A DNA stretch of 64,000 bases. It comes from Murdochiella massiliensis. GTDB taxonomy: Bacteria > Bacillota > Clostridia > Tissierellales > Peptoniphilaceae. Below, in pieces: positions 28,808 through 52,611 of this stretch (positions within the stretch are counted from its first letter, which is position 1; each line of letters opens with the position of its first letter). The stretch covers positions 186,001 through 250,000 of the forward strand of contig NZ_FIZW01000002.1 of the NCBI RefSeq assembly GCF_900059565.1, written 5' to 3'. The notes under the pieces were generated by a model that ran no database searches, had not been told where the DNA came from, and saw nothing but the letters and a program-made list of their open reading frames with translations. Both the position numbers and the translations under genes were made by a program.

Positions 28808-30517
28808 TTAGCGACCATAAAGCACATTGAGTGCGCGCAGTCTCTTCGTTATTTCCGGATCGGCATAGTCGCGCAAAAGACGCCACTTCCAGTTTCCGCC
28901 AAGCGTTCCGGGAAGATTCGTGCGCGTGCGTTCATCCGTCCACAGAATATCCTGCATTTGCAAAACGCACAAATCCGCTACGGTTGAAATGGCCCCGCGA
29001 AGTAGCCCCCAACGCACACCTTCCGAGTCATGAAGAGCAAAATAGTCTCCCACCAAACATCGAATATGCGGATCCAAATGCTCCCACCAAGTTCTAAGCG
29101 GTTCTGTATCATGTGTACCCGAATAAATACTGGTGTGACGATCAAAGCGATGCGGTAAATAATCCGAATCGCTTCCTCCTCCAAAAGCGAATTGCAAAGG
29201 CTTCATACCGGGAAAGCCTGTCTTTTCTCTTAATGTGATGACTTCGGGAGAAAGCACGCCCAAATCCTCCACTAAAATGGGCAAAGGCCCCAGTTCACGC
29301 TGTAACGTAAGGAAAAGCGAAAGGCCCGGCCCCGGTTCCCAATGGCCATATCGGGCTGTCTCATCCTCCGCCGGGACAGTCCAATAATGCGCAAAGCCGA
29401 TAAAATGATCCAGACGGAGAACATCATACAGGTTGAGATTGGCACGGAAGCGCCGCACCCAGAAGGCATAGTTGCGCTCCGCTATCACATTCCAACGATA
29501 CAAGGGATTTCCCCAGCGCTGTCCGTCCGCCGTAAAGGCATCCGGTGGCGCACCGGCCACCATCGTCGGGTTTCCGGATTCGTCCAGATAGAATTCGTCA
29601 CGTTTTGCCCAGACATCGGCGGAATCATGAGCGATATAGATCGGCATATCGCCGATAAAAAGCAATCCCTTTTCATGAGCATAGTCCTTAAGGGCGCGCC
29701 ACTGCCGGAAAAAATGATACTGTAAAAATATCTGAAACAGCAAATCTTCCTCATGCTCTGCGCGAAAAGCAGCAAGCGCAGCGGTATCCCGATCACGATA
29801 TTCCGGAGCCCACTCCGTCCATTGCACATCAAAGTGCTCCGCTTTTAACGCCTGAAACAGAGCGTATTCTTCAATCCAATCCGCATTTTCTGCGCGAAAA
29901 TGCGCAAGGGTTTCGCACGTTCCCCGATCTCCTTCAAGAAAAGAATACCCGAATATTGTCGTTGTTTCATCGGTGGCAAGAGGCTGTTTCCCGACAGCAC
30001 GCTCGAAGGCTCGGCGAAGAAGACGATAACGCTGATTGTAGAGCAGCGAATAATTGACGTATTCTTCCTCCTCACCGAAGGGAATCGCTTCCAGTTCCTC
30101 ACTCTCCAGCAAGCCGTCGGCACAAAGATATTCGAGGTCAATAAAATACGGATTTCCCGCTACCGTCGAAAAACTTTGATAGGGAGAATCCCCGTAGCTT
30201 GTCGGTCCAAGCGGAAGGATTTGCCAGTAACGCATTCCCGCCTCGTGCAAAAAATCACAAAAGCGATACGCTTCAGCGCCGAAGGTCCCGATACCATATT
30301 TCGAGGGGAGTGAAAAAATAGGCAGGATAATTCCCGTTCCACGCGGAAAGGAAACCACGGATAGTTCAGGATGGGCGGCGATATGCTCTTCCTTATCATT
30401 TCGACTTGCTGTCCAATGGGCATAGGCTTCCTTGTCGCTTCCCCACTCCGTCAAAGAAGAGACGCCGCTATGCGGCGTCTGCGACATGGACAACGTTGAA
30501 TCGTTGGTATAGTCCAT
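28808..30517 (-). CDS. malQ: 4-alpha-glucanotransferase MalQ (GH77)
   Basis: Amylomaltase, 569 aa, disproportionates maltodextrins in the cytoplasm. The GH77 triad is visible: nucleophile Asp in RLDHFIGF, acid/base Glu in VEDLGVL and stabilising Asp in SGTHDTEPL. The catalytic core begins around residue 58 (RGTGIILPIFSLPSKYGIG), so there is an N-terminal extension of about 55 residues over ordinary bacterial MalQ (about 500 aa), Ser/Thr- and Glu-rich and unlike a signal peptide. ATG 30517 has AGAGG six nucleotides upstream; ATG 30541 would overlap the ATPase stop as ATGA but lacks a ribosome-binding site. It processes sugars taken up by the adjacent ABC transporter. Confidence 0.93.
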   Translation of the reverse strand: MDYTNDSTLSMSQTPHSGVSSLTEWGSDKEAYAHWTASRNDKEEHIAAHPELSVVSFPRGTGIILPIFSLPSKYGIGTFGAEAYRFCDFLHEAGMRYWQILPLGPTSYGDSPYQSFSTVAGNPYFIDLEYLCADGLLESEELEAIPFGEEEEYVNYSLLYNQRYRLLRRAFERAVGKQPLATDETTTIFGYSFLEGDRGTCETLAHFRAENADWIEEYALFQALKAEHFDVQWTEWAPEYRDRDTAALAAFRAEHEEDLLFQIFLQYHFFRQWRALKDYAHEKGLLFIGDMPIYIAHDSADVWAKRDEFYLDESGNPTMVAGAPPDAFTADGQRWGNPLYRWNVIAERNYAFWVRRFRANLNLYDVLRLDHFIGFAHYWTVPAEDETARYGHWEPGPGLSLFLTLQRELGPLPILVEDLGVLSPEVITLREKTGFPGMKPLQFAFGGGSDSDYLPHRFDRHTSIYSGTHDTEPLRTWWEHLDPHIRCLVGDYFALHDSEGVRWGLLRGAISTVADLCVLQMQDILWTDERTRTNLPGTLGGNWKWRLLRDYADPEITKRLRALNVLYGR

Positions 30518-30537
30518 TTTTTCCTCTCTTCTTCCTG

Positions 30538-31623
30538 TCATATACGTTTCTTCGTTTCGCCATCAAAATAATGCATAGCTTCATTATCAAAGGCAAACTC
30601 CTCCGCCTGCCCTTGCACAAAATGGTAATGACCGGGCATAGTCATCACAAGGTCTTTTCCACTGGGCAGCTTAACGAACAGAGACTGTTCTTTGCCTAAG
30701 TTTTCAATGACGTCCACATGGAAGGCCACGCGATTTTTTTCGGATGTTTCTTTGTTCAGGAAGCGCTCGGAACGAATACCGGCAATGACCTTTTTTCCCT
30801 CGTACATTTTGAGACGGGATGCATCTGCAGCGGAAGGTTCAATGCGTACTTCATCATTTTCCGTACAGAACACGCCATTAACCATTTTCCCTTCCAGAAG
30901 GTTCATCGTTGGTGAACCGATAAATTGCGCCACGAACGTATTGGCCGGCGTATTGTAAAACTCATCCGGAGAACCGTCCTGTTGAATCTGCCCTTTATCC
31001 AGAAGAATGATCTTGGTCGCCATCGTCATCGCTTCCGTCTGATCATGCGTAACGTAGATGGTTGTGGTTTTCATCTGTTGGTGAATGCGCACCAGCTCGA
31101 TGCGCATATGTTCACGAAGCTTTGCATCTAAGTTGGATAGTGGTTCATCCATCAAGAAAATTCCAGGATTACGGACAATGGCGCGTCCGAGGGCTACGCG
31201 CTGACGCTGACCGCCGGAAATATCCGATGGACGTGAATAGAGGTAATCCTCAATCTGTAAAAGCTTTGCCGCATCTTTTACGCGCTTATCAATGATCCCC
31301 TTTCGCTCTTTGCGCATTTTTAGCGAAAACGCCATGTTATCGTACACCGTCATGTGCGGATAAAGCGCATAACTTTGGAAAACCATGGCAATGTCGCGAT
31401 CCTTAGGAGGTACTTGATTGACCACACGATCACCGAAAATCAATTCTCCCTCGGTTATGGAGTTTAACCCGGCAATCATGCGCAGCAGTGTACTTTTTCC
31501 GCATCCGGACGGTCCTAAAATGACACAGAAATCGCGGCTCTTAATTTCCAGATTGATGTGACGAAGTGTAAATTCTTCTCGTCCTTCATACTTTTTACCG
31601 ATGTTCTTCATTAATACCTGCAT
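30538..31623 (-). CDS. Sugar ABC transporter ATPase (MalK/MsmK/UgpC family)
   Basis: CUT1-type ATPase, 361 aa. Walker A GPSGCGKST (about 37-45), Q-loop, signature SGGQRQRVALGRA, Walker B FLMDEPLSNLD and H-loop VTHDQ are all present, followed by the TOBE regulatory domain from about residue 235. It powers the MalF/MalG-like permeases encoded immediately upstream, and because such ATPases serve several sugar importers it may also drive others. Four base pairs after malG. Confidence 0.95.
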   Translation of the reverse strand: MQVLMKNIGKKYEGREEFTLRHINLEIKSRDFCVILGPSGCGKSTLLRMIAGLNSITEGELIFGDRVVNQVPPKDRDIAMVFQSYALYPHMTVYDNMAFSLKMRKERKGIIDKRVKDAAKLLQIEDYLYSRPSDISGGQRQRVALGRAIVRNPGIFLMDEPLSNLDAKLREHMRIELVRIHQQMKTTTIYVTHDQTEAMTMATKIILLDKGQIQQDGSPDEFYNTPANTFVAQFIGSPTMNLLEGKMVNGVFCTENDEVRIEPSAADASRLKMYEGKKVIAGIRSERFLNKETSEKNRVAFHVDVIENLGKEQSLFVKLPSGKDLVMTMPGHYHFVQGQAEEFAFDNEAMHYFDGETKKRI

Positions 31624-31627
31624 CGCA

Positions 31628-32518
31628 TTATCCTTTCACCGAACCGGAAGAAAGTCCGGATACCAATTGTTTTTGAAGCATGATAAATAACGTGACAATG
31701 GGCAGTGCCGTCAGCAGTCCGCCGGCAGCAAAAAGGGGCTGGCGCATTGTCCGTGTATCGTCAATCAAAGTCTGTAAGCCCGTAGCCAGGGTGTATTCTG
31801 ATGGGCTTGTCAACAACACCTTAGGCAACATGTAGTCCGTAAATGGTGCGATAAACGCCCACAAGGCGATAATGGCAAGCATCGGACGGACAATCGGTGT
31901 GATAATCATGCGGAATACCTGGAAATTGGAGCATCCGTCCATACGGGCAGCCTCATCCAACTCCGTGGAAATGGAATCGATATAGCCCTTCATGATCAGC
32001 GTATTGTTTGCGATGCCGCCTGCTGAATAAATGAGCACCAACATCATCTGTCTGGTAAACGGCGGAATGACACCGGAAATAATCTGATGCATGGTAAAGT
32101 AGGCTGTAATTCCTGCAAACGTCGGAATCACCTGGATAAGTAGAATGGTCAAAAGCGACCCCCTCTTAAACTTAAAGCGAAAACGAGAATAGGCATATCC
32201 GGTAAAAGCGACTACCAGCGTTTGAATGATGGCGGATGCTACGCCGATAAAAACCGTATTTTTTAACCAGGAAAGATACTGCGTATCCTGAAACAGGTCG
32301 CGGAAATTATTCAGCGAAAACTCATATCTTCCGTTTAAGATAAGGTATTTCCCCTGCGCGCCATTAAACGAAGAAACGATGATCTGCAAGATCGGCCAAA
32401 GCACGATAAATGTCCATAGCGCTAATACGACGTATGTGACACCCACACCGACACGACCAATCGGCGTTAATGGCTGCTGGTCCTTCAAATAAAAATTCTG
32501 TCCTTTTTTCTTACGCAT
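31628..32518 (-). CDS. Maltodextrin ABC transporter permease, MalG-like
   Basis: Second CUT1 permease subunit, 296 aa, six membrane helices. The cytosolic coupling loop is the EAA motif ELDEAARMDGCSNFQVFRMIITP (split here into ELDEAARMDG and CSNFQVF). It ends SSGSVKG, the typical MalG end. I start at ATG 32518; the longer open frame overlapping malF lacks support. Four nucleotides after malF. Confidence 0.92.
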   Translation of the reverse strand: MRKKKGQNFYLKDQQPLTPIGRVGVGVTYVVLALWTFIVLWPILQIIVSSFNGAQGKYLILNGRYEFSLNNFRDLFQDTQYLSWLKNTVFIGVASAIIQTLVVAFTGYAYSRFRFKFKRGSLLTILLIQVIPTFAGITAYFTMHQIISGVIPPFTRQMMLVLIYSAGGIANNTLIMKGYIDSISTELDEAARMDGCSNFQVFRMIITPIVRPMLAIIALWAFIAPFTDYMLPKVLLTSPSEYTLATGLQTLIDDTRTMRQPLFAAGGLLTALPIVTLFIMLQKQLVSGLSSGSVKG

Positions 32519-32522
32519 AACG

Positions 32523-34568
32523 TTATCCCTCCCGGAAAGCCGAAGTACGGCGATATCCGATAAAAGCCACCACAATGAGTACGATGGAAATGAGAATGGA
32601 AATGGCAGCGCCAAAGGCTTGATACTCATTTTCCATGGTCAGCTTGAAAATGTAGGAGATGAGAAGATCACTGGTTCCGGCAAGATTTCCGTACTTGGTC
32701 GGATTGAACGGTCCCCCTCCGTTAAAGAGCTGGATAATGGTGTAGTTATTAAAGTTAAACGTGTATTGTCCAACAAGGATCGGTGCGGTCTGAAACAACA
32801 GCATCGGCAGGGTGATGCGATGAAACTGCTGCCAGGCATTTGCACCGTCCATTTCTGCTGCCTCATATAAATCAGCCGGAATAGATTGTAAAACACCGGT
32901 AGCCAGCAAAAAGATATAAGCGTTTCCGCACCATCCCTGAATGAAAATCAAGGCGGCACGCGTCAAATTTGCATCGTTCTTGACGTTTACCGTATGTCCT
33001 GCCACAGAAGACAATACCTCCGTCAAATAGCCATCCGGCGCCAACATAATGGAAAAGAACATAATGGTGATGAACGCAGGAACTGCCCAAGGCAAAATAT
33101 AAACCGTACGGAAGAAGCGTTTACCGCGAATATGTTTTCCGTTAACCAAAATAGCTAATCCCATACCGATCGCAATCGCCAAGGTAGTTGCACCAAGCGT
33201 CCATATTACTGTCCAGCCTAAGATTCGCCAGAAGAGCGAACCCTGCAAGCCTTGCGCACGGAGGATCGTCATATAATTATCCAAACCGATCCAGCTGAAT
33301 TTGGACTGATGGTCGGGGTCCATGCCTGTGAAGGAGAGAAGCACTGCCGTAATTATGGGGATGAGTGTGATAAATAAGATCAACAATACAGCGGGAATAT
33401 TGACGAAATACGGAAATCCCTTTTCATTGATTTCCCGCTTCGTTTCAAACCACTGATTCGGACGTATGCCCAGCATCTCGTCTTTTTCCACTTTTCGTGC
33501 ATCCACAAAAGCAACGCCTATCAAAATGAGGGATAAAAAAACGAGAACAAGGGAGACGATGCCTTCTATCATAAAGATAAGCGATCGGTCTACACGAGCA
33601 CCATTTTTCGCAAGCGTAAACAGTCCCATCAGCCCTTCTCCCTGATAATTGCCAAAGCCCAACGCATACGGGACAGCAATCAGATAGATAAAGAGTACGA
33701 TAAGAAGACAATACGCGCCTTTCTTTTTTTGTCCGTTGAGAATTTGGCCAAGGCCCGGAACGGGCAAAGAAAACAAGCAACGCCACAACGAATTTTTCAT
33801 TGTCTCCGCCGGTACACTGCGACGAATGGCAGAGATTTCCTCATTTAATGTGGCTTCCTGTTGACGGTTGTCATTGCGTAAATGATGTTTGATGTTGTGA
33901 ATCAAATCATCATGATATTTTTGCGGCGCATAATATTGCTTAAGGGCAATATCTTGTTGATATTCATTTTTAGCAATTTTTACCGCATTGTCGTATGCTT
34001 TTCGGGAAATTAACCCTTCATGCAGAGAATTTTTTAACTCCTGCACACGCGCATCAAACTGCTTCTTTCTTTCTTCTTTATACTGCGCTTCTTCCGTTTG
34101 ATACGCAGCTGCTTTTTCGGTATCGACCTTTTGCTGATTGGCATATTCCAAATCCAGCAAAAGAAGACGATACGAGGTAATCATCGCCGGCAACAGCTCC
34201 ACTTTCTTTTCTGCCGTGCGGTAAGCAAGTTCCGCATCGTAGCACAAATCCACGTATGGAGCATAGAATTCCGCCATTTTTTCCGCGCGGAAAAGGGTGA
34301 TCAGATATTGTCTTACTTTAGGATCCTTATCATCAATCTGCGCTTGGGCTTGCGGTTCTTCTGCCTTGAGCGTTGCGAGAAATGTCTTTTCCGCCTGTTC
34401 ATATTCGCGTAATGCGATAAGATAAGGATGAGTATCTTTTTGTGCTTTCAGACGACGAACGGTATCGGTATCCCCCGCATTTTGTGCAACAGCGAGTTCC
34501 CGCAGATATTCATTTTTCCGCGGATATTCTCTCCCGATTCGATCCGTCAGCATCACGGGATAATTCAT
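32523..34568 (-). CDS. MalF-like permease with a 260-residue coiled-coil N-terminal extension
   Basis: First CUT1 permease subunit, 681 aa, against about 430-500 for Firmicutes MalF. Residues 1-262 are soluble, Lys/Glu/Gln-rich and helical (several heptad-like runs), and include a SHOCT-like segment LKNSLHEGLISRKAYDNAVK at about 178-197. Residues 264-358 hold a PGLGQILNGQKKKGA element and two membrane helices, a module seen in many Firmicutes MalF. The transport core starts at about 385 and contains the EAA loop YEAAEMDGANAWQQFHRITLP (568-588). No frameshift or internal start explains the extension: no strong ribosome-binding site is seen near residue 256. The extension faces the cytosol and could regulate transport or bind a partner; its role is unknown. 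Confidence 0.9.
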   Translation of the reverse strand: MNYPVMLTDRIGREYPRKNEYLRELAVAQNAGDTDTVRRLKAQKDTHPYLIALREYEQAEKTFLATLKAEEPQAQAQIDDKDPKVRQYLITLFRAEKMAEFYAPYVDLCYDAELAYRTAEKKVELLPAMITSYRLLLLDLEYANQQKVDTEKAAAYQTEEAQYKEERKKQFDARVQELKNSLHEGLISRKAYDNAVKIAKNEYQQDIALKQYYAPQKYHDDLIHNIKHHLRNDNRQQEATLNEEISAIRRSVPAETMKNSLWRCLFSLPVPGLGQILNGQKKKGAYCLLIVLFIYLIAVPYALGFGNYQGEGLMGLFTLAKNGARVDRSLIFMIEGIVSLVLVFLSLILIGVAFVDARKVEKDEMLGIRPNQWFETKREINEKGFPYFVNIPAVLLILFITLIPIITAVLLSFTGMDPDHQSKFSWIGLDNYMTILRAQGLQGSLFWRILGWTVIWTLGATTLAIAIGMGLAILVNGKHIRGKRFFRTVYILPWAVPAFITIMFFSIMLAPDGYLTEVLSSVAGHTVNVKNDANLTRAALIFIQGWCGNAYIFLLATGVLQSIPADLYEAAEMDGANAWQQFHRITLPMLLFQTAPILVGQYTFNFNNYTIIQLFNGGGPFNPTKYGNLAGTSDLLISYIFKLTMENEYQAFGAAISILISIVLIVVAFIGYRRTSAFREG

Positions 34569-34613: not shown

Positions 34614-35048
34614 TTATCGCCGACTCTTACGCCGTGCCTTTTCTTCTATATCGGCATGAAGAATAAAAATTACCGATAAACAGAACAGTTCAACCCACCA
34701 AAACACATTGTTCCACTGAAAAAGCAGAATACGCATCACCAGCGTATAAAACAAAAGCAGTCCCCATACCCAATAGGCTAATTTCGTCAGTCCCATCTTG
34801 TGTACGGCAAAATAGAGATAAACGGCATACCCTGCAGGGATCAAAAGGGAAGAAAACATCTCTCCCGTGCGCATGGCGGTATAATCTCGCAACGTCAGCT
34901 GCGAAGAGATGCTGTCCCGCCACACTTCAAACAGCGCACGGTCTTTCGCCGTAAGCAACGCATAAAGACATATGAATAAAACATAGCATGCTACGGCAAT
35001 ATAGATGGCAAGCGTCTTTTGTTTTGAAGGATGCTTCAGTTGAAACAT
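34614..35048 (-). CDS. Small four-helix membrane protein in the maltodextrin operon
   Basis: 144 aa with four predicted membrane helices at about 13-34, 66-86, 88-110 and 114-132, and short basic termini (KHPSKQK; KARRKSRR). No family recognised. It lies between the binding-protein gene and malF, downstream of the terminator at 35079-35112, so it is made at the lower level of the permease genes. It could be an accessory subunit of the importer; no sequence motif proves that. Confidence 0.8.
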   Translation of the reverse strand: MFQLKHPSKQKTLAIYIAVACYVLFICLYALLTAKDRALFEVWRDSISSQLTLRDYTAMRTGEMFSSLLIPAGYAVYLYFAVHKMGLTKLAYWVWGLLLFYTLVMRILLFQWNNVFWWVELFCLSVIFILHADIEEKARRKSRR

Positions 35049-35149: not shown

Positions 35150-36481
35150 TTATTTCTGCAAGTTGGTCATCATCGCGTCAAAGGAAGCCTTTAACTGTTT
35201 ATAAGCCTCTTCGGCGGACGAGGGCTTTTCAGCATTCCAGGAAAGGACTGCATTCTTCCATGTATCCCAAACCTGACCATACTCCTGGAAAAGTGGACGA
35301 GAAACGGCGTTCTGATAGGAATTAATCATGTTAACCACCGTCGCCTTCTCCGCATCGGTCAGTCCCGACGCCTCATATTTTTCTGCAGAAACCTGTTCCA
35401 TGACTTTTCCGGTTGCCTTGAAATAGTCCTCAAAGAATTCCGGATTCGCCAACTCCGCAATTAAAGCATTGCAGATTGCCATTTTGTTCGCATCTTCTTC
35501 ATTGCGAACGTTAATCGCATATCCCCAGCCGCCTTTCCAATGTGCCAGCGGCTTTCCGGCAATGGTTAAATTATCCAGCGCGCCCAATTCCAAATTCTCT
35601 TCACCGGCTGCTTTTGCAATGGTGTTGTAATCCCACGGACCGCCGAGACGGATGACGCCATTCTTTCCCGTTTCAAACTGTGTATCGGTATACGCATACC
35701 CAGCTTTATCATCAAACAGACTCGTATTATTATCGGCATTGCCTTTCCAATAGCCATATAACGCTTCGATTACCGCCTGTTTTTCTTTCGGAAGTTTCGC
35801 CCATTCCATCGTTAAATCTGAAGCAAAAGTTCCATCTTCTTTCTTCTCCAGCAATTCAATTCCTGCTGAGTTCAAAAGCGCGACACCATACCAAGCATCA
35901 AATGCGGGAACCTGTACTTGTGCCCAAGTCGCTTCTCCAATTTCTATAGGCTTTGTCAAATCGATATTTTGCGCTTTTGCATTTGCCTTTTGTTTGAAAG
36001 CAAGTAAGCACTCAATATTCATCGGGAAAGCAAAATACTCGTCATCAATCTTAAAGTTTCCGCCCAAGCCTTGATTGAATTCGGCAAAATCTTTCCATCC
36101 GCCTACAGTTTTGCACAGCCCTTCGGCATCAATCGCTGCCAGGTTTTCGCCTTCTACCATGCCGTAAAGGCGATCCGCCGGAATCGAAAATACGTCAGCG
36201 ACGTCTTCATTCTTCGGACCGGTCTTATCAATCACTTCAATGTGATCAAATGCGCCCTTTTCAATAATGGAAATCTCTACATCAGGATTGGCTTTTTTAA
36301 CACGTTCAATCGCTGCTTCGTAATAAGGTTTCCATCCCTCTTCCGCCTGAACAGTAATAGAGCCTTTAAGCCCACCGGTTTCTGGTTTCTCTTCTGTCTG
36401 TTTGCCCCCTCCTCCACATGCAACAAGGGACAGGGACATAGAGCCTGCCAGCAGTAAAGATAATGCCTTTTTCCAATTCAT
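35150..36481 (-). CDS. Maltodextrin ABC transporter substrate-binding lipoprotein (MalE-like)
   Basis: Extracellular solute-binding protein family 1, 443 aa. N-terminal signal MNWKKALSLLLAGSMSLSLVAC with lipobox LVAC and lipidated C22, followed by a glycine linker GGGG. The body contains the CUT1 binding-protein features (GKNGVIRLGGPWDYN, WGYAINVRNEEDANKM). ATG 36481 has GGAGG with five-base spacing; the long upstream open frame has no coding support. First gene of the operon SBP-membrane protein-malF-malG-ATPase-malQ. Processed by LspA, which is encoded in this window. Sugar specificity inferred from malQ; maltose/maltodextrin is likely. Confidence 0.93.
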   Translation of the reverse strand: MNWKKALSLLLAGSMSLSLVACGGGGKQTEEKPETGGLKGSITVQAEEGWKPYYEAAIERVKKANPDVEISIIEKGAFDHIEVIDKTGPKNEDVADVFSIPADRLYGMVEGENLAAIDAEGLCKTVGGWKDFAEFNQGLGGNFKIDDEYFAFPMNIECLLAFKQKANAKAQNIDLTKPIEIGEATWAQVQVPAFDAWYGVALLNSAGIELLEKKEDGTFASDLTMEWAKLPKEKQAVIEALYGYWKGNADNNTSLFDDKAGYAYTDTQFETGKNGVIRLGGPWDYNTIAKAAGEENLELGALDNLTIAGKPLAHWKGGWGYAINVRNEEDANKMAICNALIAELANPEFFEDYFKATGKVMEQVSAEKYEASGLTDAEKATVVNMINSYQNAVSRPLFQEYGQVWDTWKNAVLSWNAEKPSSAEEAYKQLKASFDAMMTNLQK

Positions 36482-50533: not shown

Positions 50534-52260
50534 TCTTTCTCCCCTTCCGTCTTTTCCGCTGTAAACGCAGAAACCGCTTGCACGATCTCTTCCGTGGCAT
50601 GCATTATACACACCTCATCCGCCAACTTTTTTGCTTCTTTCAGTGTAATTCCTCTTACGCGTTCTTTCAACCGGGGAAGGATGGAAGCCGGAGCGGAAAG
50701 CGAATCCAGTCCCAAACCCAGCAACAAGGGAGTAGCGCGTAAATTCCCCGCAAAACTTCCGCATAATCCACAGGAAATACCCGCATCATGGGCAGCTTCC
50801 ACCGCCTGTTTAATAGCGCGCACGACCGCCGGATGAAAGGGAGAATGCAGCTTGGCCACATTGTTGTTCCCTCGATCGGTAGCCAGGATGTATTGCGTAA
50901 GATCATTGGTTCCGATGCTGAAAAAATCGCAACATTCGGCCAAATCTCGAGCCAAGAAAATGGCTGCCGGCGTCTCGACGGTAATCCCCACAGGCAGATC
51001 AGGATCAAAGGACTGCTTTTGCTCTATAAGGCGGCATTTCTCTTCTTCGAGCATTTCCCGAACGCGATAAACTTCAGAAGGACTGATAACCATGGGAAGC
51101 ATGAGCTGTATGTTTCCTACAGAAGAGGCGCGTAAAATCGCACGAAGTTGAGCGCGAAAAATATTCTCCCGGTCAAAGCAGAAGCGAAGCGCACGCCACC
51201 CGAGAAACGGATTGGCTTCACGAGGAAAAGCATAATAGGGCAATCGCTTATCACCGCCTATATCCAAGGTGCGAATGATGAGCGGCCGATTGGCTAAAAG
51301 AACCGCCGCCTGATGATAGACACGATATTGCTCTTCTTCCGTAGGAAAATGATCCTGTTCCATGTAAAGCAGTTCCGTACGGAATAATCCTACACCTTCC
51401 GCGCCGGCAAGCAATCCGACCGATAGATCATCCAGACCTCCAATGTTGACAAAGGTATCAAGAGCTCGACCGTCTTGCGTTACCGCCTTCTCCTCAGGAT
51501 TCATCTCCAGACGAAGATTATAACGTTTCCCCACATCCATTTTTGCCTGAACCAGTGCAAGGGTGTCCTCATCCGGATCCAAAATCACTTCACCGTTTTC
51601 CGCGTCCAGGATAATCAATTCTCCATCTTTCACCGTGGAGATGAGATTGGTCAATCCGACCAATGCAGGAATACCCATGGTCTGTGCAATCATCGCCGTA
51701 TGGGATGTCGCACCTCCGCGATCACTGGTGAATCCTAACACATTCGTTTTATCCAGAAGAAGCGCATCAGATGGGGCAAGCTCTTCGGTAAGAAGAATGC
51801 AGGGTGCGGTAAGATGGCTTAGGCGAGGCACGGGAAGGCCCTTAAGCTCATAAAGCAAACTTCTGCCCATATCACGATAATCACTTCCCCGTTCACGCAG
51901 ATAAGGGTCTTCAAGAGCTTCCAACTGAGCCGCCATCATCCGTATCGTGGAATCCAGTGCACGATCTGCGGACATATGCTTTTCCCGAATGTATTGTTCC
52001 ACCGTCTCGAACAAATACGGATCATCCAGCAAAGCAATATGCGCCTCTCGCAATGAGCAAAGCAAAGGGGACGGTGCTTCCTCCTGTACCAATTTCTTAC
52101 GGAAAGCGGAAAAAGCATTTTTTATCGCTAATACTTCACCTTCCACTTCCGACTCCCTGATCCAATCGTTGCGAATCGGAATTTCCTCCGGAACCCAGCG
52201 TTTGACTCTTCCCACCGCCAAGCCGTATGAGGCGATGATTCCCGATATTCGCTTTGTCAT
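50530..52260 (-). CDS. ptsI: PTS enzyme I
   Basis: Phosphoenolpyruvate-protein phosphotransferase, 576 aa, transfers phosphate from PEP to HPr. Active-site H187 in GGATSHTAMIA, PEP-binding RTLDIGGDK, and the C-terminal barrel with GTNDLTQY, and FFSIGTNDLTQYILATDRGN and GLCGSFAG split over residues about 455-515. ATG 52260 with GGAGG. Separated from ptsH by the terminator at 52310-52342, so read-through sets its level below HPr. No PTS permease is in the window. Confidence 0.96.
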   Translation of the reverse strand: MTKRISGIIASYGLAVGRVKRWVPEEIPIRNDWIRESEVEGEVLAIKNAFSAFRKKLVQEEAPSPLLCSLREAHIALLDDPYLFETVEQYIREKHMSADRALDSTIRMMAAQLEALEDPYLRERGSDYRDMGRSLLYELKGLPVPRLSHLTAPCILLTEELAPSDALLLDKTNVLGFTSDRGGATSHTAMIAQTMGIPALVGLTNLISTVKDGELIILDAENGEVILDPDEDTLALVQAKMDVGKRYNLRLEMNPEEKAVTQDGRALDTFVNIGGLDDLSVGLLAGAEGVGLFRTELLYMEQDHFPTEEEQYRVYHQAAVLLANRPLIIRTLDIGGDKRLPYYAFPREANPFLGWRALRFCFDRENIFRAQLRAILRASSVGNIQLMLPMVISPSEVYRVREMLEEEKCRLIEQKQSFDPDLPVGITVETPAAIFLARDLAECCDFFSIGTNDLTQYILATDRGNNNVAKLHSPFHPAVVRAIKQAVEAAHDAGISCGLCGSFAGNLRATPLLLGLGLDSLSAPASILPRLKERVRGITLKEAKKLADEVCIMHATEEIVQAVSAFTAEKTEGEKE

Positions 52261-52309
52261 CTTCGCCTCCTCCGTCGCGCAAGGAAATACGTCCTTTTTT
52301 GGGTTAGAC

Positions 52310-52342
52310 AAAAAAAGAGAGGGAGCATCAATCGGTGCTCCC
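52310..52342 (-). terminator. Intrinsic terminator between ptsH and ptsI
   Basis: Minus-strand stem GGGAGCA/TGCTCCC with loop CCGATTGA and following TCTCTTTTTTT. It trims the ptsH transcript and presumably lets only part of transcription continue into ptsI. Confidence 0.85.
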
Positions 52343-52350
52343 TTCTATCG

Positions 52351-52611
52351 TTAATCGGTCAGCTGCGAAATGAACTCGACAATTTGATCGACATGTGCCT
52401 CCGCGTCATCGCCATTCACGCGAACCGTGATATCCATACCTTTGGAAATCCCCAGACTCATCACATTGAAGATGCTCTTCGCATTGGCTACTTTTCCATT
52501 TTTTACCAATTCGACGTCGCCGGGAATATTTTTTACAAATTGCACCAGCGCTGCTGCCGGGCGTGCATGTAAGCCGGTCTCATTAACCACCGTTACCGTT
52601 TTTTCTGCCAT
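52351..52611 (-). CDS. ptsH: PTS phosphocarrier HPr
   Basis: HPr, 86 aa. H15 (ETGLHARPAA) is the PEP-dependent phosphorylation site and S46 (NAKSIFNVMSLGI) the HPr-kinase site that in Firmicutes lets HPr act as CcpA corepressor. Well-formed AAGGAGG ribosome-binding site. Directly downstream of a LacI/CcpA-like gene by 42 bp. Confidence 0.97.
   Translation of the reverse strand: MAEKTVTVVNETGLHARPAAALVQFVKNIPGDVELVKNGKVANAKSIFNVMSLGISKGMDITVRVNGDDAEAHVDQIVEFISQLTD

Follow-up and report, generated by a model that had tools for sequence, protein, structure and literature searches.

The maltose system MalFGK2-E is a textbook type I ABC importer. In OpuA/OpuC (CBS), MetNI (C2) and ModBC, extra cytosolic regulatory domains are carried on the ATPase subunit, where they bind a small ligand. 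MusEFGK2I is a maltose importer of the CUT1 type with an additional membrane protein, MusI, whose function is unknown, and to our knowledge it has no cytosolic MalF extension. The name given to this Corynebacterium glutamicum system includes MusI, and it is listed as TC 3.A.1.1.45 (Gardnerella paper, PMC10101108). In E. coli, MalFGK2 is inhibited by EIIA-Glc, through MalK (PMC10710835).

The window, that is, the whole 64,000-nucleotide stretch of Murdochiella massiliensis DNA analysed here, encodes an importer that resembles the E. coli system (CUT1, TC 3.A.1.1) in its MalE, MalF, MalG and MalK components, in the alignment of its MalF core and in its EAA loop. However, a 250-residue cytosolic domain is absent from E. 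coli MalF, the E. coli system has no counterpart of the small membrane protein that we call OrfX, and MalK is the target of the cytosolic regulator known for that system (PMC10710835). The short Firmicutes-type MalF/MdxF proteins (430–450 aa) share the PGLGQ hairpin and the core with the long MalF and are about 35% identical to it from residue 250 on, but they have no extension, no orfX and no malK nearby, and often use a shared ATPase. The nearest parallel to OrfX is MusI, the extra membrane protein of MusEFGK2I. Like OpuA/OpuC, MetNI and ModBC, the importer has a cytosolic accessory domain through which transport could be gated, whereas the domain is on the ATPase in those systems and is here on the permease, without a recognisable fold. 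We consider it quite possible, if still short of probable, that the extension and OrfX together make up a module intrinsic to a distinct CUT1 maltodextrin importer, acting on that importer's own MalK dimer.

Organization of the importer locus

The genes of the locus are as follows.

35150..36481, minus strand: malE, lipoprotein solute-binding protein (PDB 9kha extracellular solute-binding protein, E 4.4e-11)
34614..35048, minus strand: orfX, 144-aa small membrane protein, upstream of malF, with about four hydrophobic segments by inspection
34568..32523, minus strand: malF (long), 681 codons in a single frame with an ATG start
31628..32518, minus strand: malG, second permease subunit (MalG model, 3.6e-41; start chosen at MRKKKGQ)
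30538..31623, minus strand: malK, dedicated ATPase of the UgpC/MalK type (UgpC model, 1e-133; ABC_tran, 1.3e-30)
28808..30541, minus strand: malQ, 4-alpha-glucanotransferase (GH77; Glyco_hydro_77, 4.5e-164)

The gene order malE-orfX-malF(long)-malG-malK was found in the six long-form loci fetched. Orthologues of malE, 46–51% identical, occupied the same place in six relatives, and MalE of the long-form importer gave no significant match to a Pfam solute-binding family in the window or in locus L067. MalG was 62–64% identical to that of the window in long-form loci versus 32–36% in short-form loci (six each), and the MalK proteins of the six long-form loci were 64–70% identical to that of the window. 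Neither orfX nor malK was found nearby in six short-malF loci, and the binding-protein gene of two short-malF operons on plasmids lay 18–41 bases upstream of malF, with no orfX between them. The cores of the long MalF proteins formed one clade with a branch support of 100/100, as against eight short ones. The extension, orfX and the dedicated malK thus travel together, indicating one importer type: the long MalF architecture is conserved, has a single origin, co-occurs with orfX and is associated with a dedicated malK.

The GH77 gene malQ in the same gene run supports maltodextrin as the probable substrate of the importer. Four of the six long-form loci inspected had a malQ gene nearby, in varying positions; none was found near short malF genes or in the sequence fetched for L068 and L070. 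This distribution would suit an extension that holds MalQ or a phosphorylase at the importer and thereby channels the imported glucan, but the two loci in which malQ was not found, its variable position and the clustering of sugar genes that is expected anyway make such a scaffold improbable.

Reading frame and permease core of the long MalF

The initial annotation had described a continuous 681-codon frame. The frame itself held up, with stop-free homologues in dozens of genomes, and it was assigned to the minus strand; the plus strand at the malF coordinates (32523–34568) contains many stops. An AAGGG motif lies 5′ of the start codon (GAATAGAAGGGAAACGAT-ATG). The protein was divided into the following regions.

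33801..34568, minus strand: residues 1–256, N-terminal extension, predicted to be cytosolic, all-helical in the model and conserved in relatives
33996..34016, minus strand: residues 185–191, LISRKAY region, conserved hairpin tip with I187/S188 invariant and a predicted turn
33486..33800, minus strand: residues 257–361, PGLGQ two-helix module and the subsequent loop, with an invariant motif and two hydrophobic segments
32523..33485, minus strand: residues 362–681 and the stop codon, MalF core, a CUT1 permease matched by BPD_transp_1, the MalF model and PDB MalF

By every sequence feature tested, the long MalF is a member of the CUT1/MalF family. Residues 465–673 matched BPD_transp_1 (PF00528, 4.7e-18), residues 426–669 matched the MalF model PRK10999 (1.1e-56, with 192.7 bits lying below the curated cut-off of 392 bits), and residues 428–671 aligned with the PDB MalF structures 3fh6/2r6g (E 1.4e-56). 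The EAA loop, previously placed at residues 568–588 of a CUT1 permease core, was recovered as DLYEAAEMDGANAWQQFHRITLP at residues 566–588. The PGLGQ module, with which the short MalF proteins also begin, has P271, G272, G274 and Q275 invariant among 20 diverse members, and its hydrophobic segments span residues 280–307 and 325–361.

The N-terminal region had been read as soluble and charged, and this was borne out for residues 1–256, which contain no transmembrane segment and are 32–50% charged across the family; averaged over 20 relatives, the first transmembrane segment does not begin before residue 280. The extension is followed by eight hydrophobic segments. Since six of these precede the cytosolic EAA loop, the N-terminus of the long MalF is predicted to be cytosolic.

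It had also been considered that translation might start near residue 255 instead. The sole candidate for such a start in the window is Met257, which is present in only 1 of 20 homologues; an internal start is therefore unlikely, and no conserved one was found. In the window, GGAG directly precedes Met257 (33798–33830, minus strand), although Met257 itself is not conserved, and a minor, shorter second MalF product from this codon is conceivable in this species.

Distribution and conservation of the extension

Murdochiella belongs to the Peptoniphilaceae (Tissierellales). Whole-protein searches recovered full-length long MalF from 43 of the 130 genomes in the family and, across the order, from 58 of 249, where it was distributed over families f1, f13, f16 and f18; in one genome, G206, the long malF gene is split across two contigs. 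Nearly all long-malF open frames were 670–730 residues long, and the extension is 100% identical in Murdochiella sp. Marseille-P8839. A profile of the extension (alignment A2, residues 1–256) was run on partly overlapping sets of 249 genomes from the order, 391 from the class and 398 from the phylum. It additionally detected the extension in the class families f49, f57 and f58 and in the phylum family f154, and beyond the order full-length long MalF occurs in 7 sampled genomes. The initial annotation had weighed the existence of the same domain as a separate gene of known function, and no stand-alone homologue was found by the A2 profile in these genomes. Apart from long MalF, its matches were limited to a divergent, permease-like relic shared by two genomes and to two weak ones interrupted by stops. 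No homologue of the extension was present in the plasmids and viral contigs searched, where plasmid matches to a long-MalF relative were short MalF proteins; a phage or plasmid origin of the extension was accordingly rejected.

Among 20 diverse members, D9, R17, N19, Y21, F101, Y102, Y110, I187, S188, P253 and E255 of the extension are invariant, and K190 and A191 are conserved in at least 90%. In close pairs, dN/dS was 0.06–0.22 for the extension versus 0.02–0.06 for the core. The extension and orfX are under purifying selection, and the conservation and dN/dS values rule out a chance or mis-frame origin of the long malF. The faster evolution of the extension indicates that most of its surface is free of tight constraint. 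This difference in rate, together with the absence of the extension from short MalF, is what would be seen if the extension were a lineage-specific decoration of little function, retained through its fusion to an essential subunit; we regard that as highly improbable, given a dN/dS of only 0.06–0.22, motifs that are invariant across the families of a phylum and the strict pairing of the extension with orfX. These observations point away from a peculiarity of one genome and toward an accessory module, so far unstudied, of a transporter of the textbook kind.

The relic is found in two genomes of one genus, G054 (L066:5391-7681) and G055 (C2:1434348-1434914), as a 564-residue frame in which the extension is faintly recognisable, a PGVGQ motif is present and the permease region has degenerated. 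In G054, this frame is followed by a 201-residue ATPase-like remnant that is MalK-like around the Q loop, and no malE, orfX or malG was found nearby; the 564-residue protein may belong to a relic or a repurposed pair. In a further genome (G035:C9:97090-97820), the extension frame is interrupted by several stops near residue 50–90 and otherwise intact, which reflects either a sequencing error or a decaying N-terminus.

Predicted structure of the extension

The initial annotation, which knew of no such architecture, had suggested a search of the N-terminal region against sequence and structure databases, and this search returned no match to the extension in Pfam, NCBIfam, PHROGs or PDB sequences; a fold search with the single-sequence model gave a best E of 1.5, which is meaningless. 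No description of the architecture of extension, OrfX and long MalF was found in the open-access literature searched, and both the extension and OrfX are undescribed in the sequence and domain libraries and open-access papers covered here.

A single-sequence AlphaFold model of residues 1–262 was all-helical and weak overall (pLDDT 62, pTM 0.36), and a model of the full-length protein was uninformative overall (pLDDT 47). The confident part of the model comprises residues 161–200 (pLDDT 80–91), and a bend at GLISRKA separates helices 126–183 and 189–251, the same bend appearing in the full-length run, with a pLDDT of about 90 at the tip in both runs. If this model holds, the C-terminal end of the extension is a long helical hairpin; its tip is conserved, and its second helix leads toward the PGLGQ membrane hairpin. 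From hydropathy and the models, we infer that the extension is cytosolic and forms a helical hairpin.

Two structural assignments made earlier fared less well. The region had been called a coiled coil; it is helical in the weak model, but hydrophobicity follows a clear helical period only at about residues 113–140 and 211–252, and with regular periodicity in parts only, a coiled coil is not established. A SHOCT-like stretch had been noted at residues 178–197, but residues 160–214 did not match Pfam SHOCT at E 10, nor did the 20 members at E 1, and in the model this stretch is the tip of the long helical hairpin.

OrfX is an obligate partner of the long MalF

The companion gene orfX, overlooked in the earlier reading, is an obligate partner of long malF. 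When an A3 profile search was compared with the list of long-malF genomes, orfX was encoded in all 58 such genomes of the order; in 57 it lay directly upstream of malF on the same strand, and in the 58th the malF gene is at a contig end. It was likewise present in all seven long-malF loci beyond the order (within L049–L056). OrfX gave no significant match to any protein family searched, and its aligned relatives (alignment A3) are on average weakly alike and clearly one family. OrfX-like matches outside the long-malF genomes were obtained in G032 and G106 (E 6.5e-8 and 5.7e-5), and are probably chance or remote ones, since the gene neighbourhoods are unrelated.

Because the co-occurrence of the extension with orfX is confined to related genomes and a single clade, it partly reflects inheritance, and with this shared ancestry behind it its Fisher p value is not to be read at face value. 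Beyond the divergence of the core, that of the extension correlated weakly with that of OrfX (partial r 0.20, 2 of 500 permutations), a correlation no more specific than that between OrfX and MalG (0.23).

The obligate pairing with a small membrane protein would suit a structural role, in which the extension and OrfX assemble or hold MalF-MalG-MalK, or dimerise or cluster transporters, without regulating turnover. Fast evolution within a conserved frame and the helix-rich nature of the extension would fit the same role. However, the invariant residues fall in short motifs (D9, R17, N19, Y21; F101, Y102; I187, S188), a pattern better suited to specific binding sites than to a spacer, and short MalF proteins work without the extension and OrfX; we judge an assembly or stability factor unlikely, while allowing it an appreciable chance.

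A PTS-dependent role of the extension is unlikely

Binding of a PTS protein by the extension had been suggested in the initial annotation. The genome of the window has enzyme I and HPr, whose genes adjoin in the window (50572–52605, minus strand) at about 16 kb from the importer. The long-MalF genomes G096 (100% complete, 3 contigs) and G219 (97%, 1 contig), as well as G221 and G063 (both 97%), G364, G313 and G207, have no enzyme I, and the last three also lack HPr (G364 and G313 being about 90% complete). The existence of long-MalF genomes without enzyme I, some of them without HPr, means that PTS phosphotransfer cannot be required for a conserved role of the extension, and that HPr is probably not required either. 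The adjacent enzyme I and HPr genes and the inhibition of E. coli MalFGK2 by EIIA-Glc, although via MalK (PMC10710835), would agree with an extension that serves inducer exclusion or activation by binding HPr, enzyme I or an EIIA; with long MalF kept in four well-assembled genomes (G096, G219, G221 and G063) without enzyme I, and in G364 and G313 without both proteins, we consider PTS docking very unlikely. In genomes that have HPr, its Ser-phosphorylated form may retain a residual role.

Proposed mechanism

In the reading that we favour, an intrinsic module acting on a dedicated ATPase, the importer would have five encoded components, MalE, OrfX, the long MalF and MalG, together with a MalK of its own. 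The last two long helices of the extension would pair as a hairpin that continues at its base into the PGLGQ transmembrane hairpin and directs its conserved tip (around residues 185–191) into the cytosol. OrfX would pack against the membrane helices of PGLGQ/MalF, and the extension would brace or gate the MalK dimer from the side, such that ATP hydrolysis is coupled or restrained by the extension together with OrfX. We infer contact of the extension with OrfX and with MalK, and likewise a regulatory effect; the extension may gate the transporter, or it may bind another regulator. A bolder and more doubtful proposal, which we hold to be on the unlikely side, is that of an undescribed control module in which OrfX is a fifth, membrane-embedded subunit and a helical arm of the permease clamps its own ATPase dimer, setting transport according to a cytosolic signal.

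A widespread clade of this importer whose permease has gained a conserved cytosolic extension, along with an obligate membrane protein, would offer a natural test of regulation exerted at the permease and not via MalK. Its carriers include the Peptoniphilaceae, members of which are common in the human microbiota, and two protein families that so far have neither a name nor a model, the extension and OrfX, would gain one.
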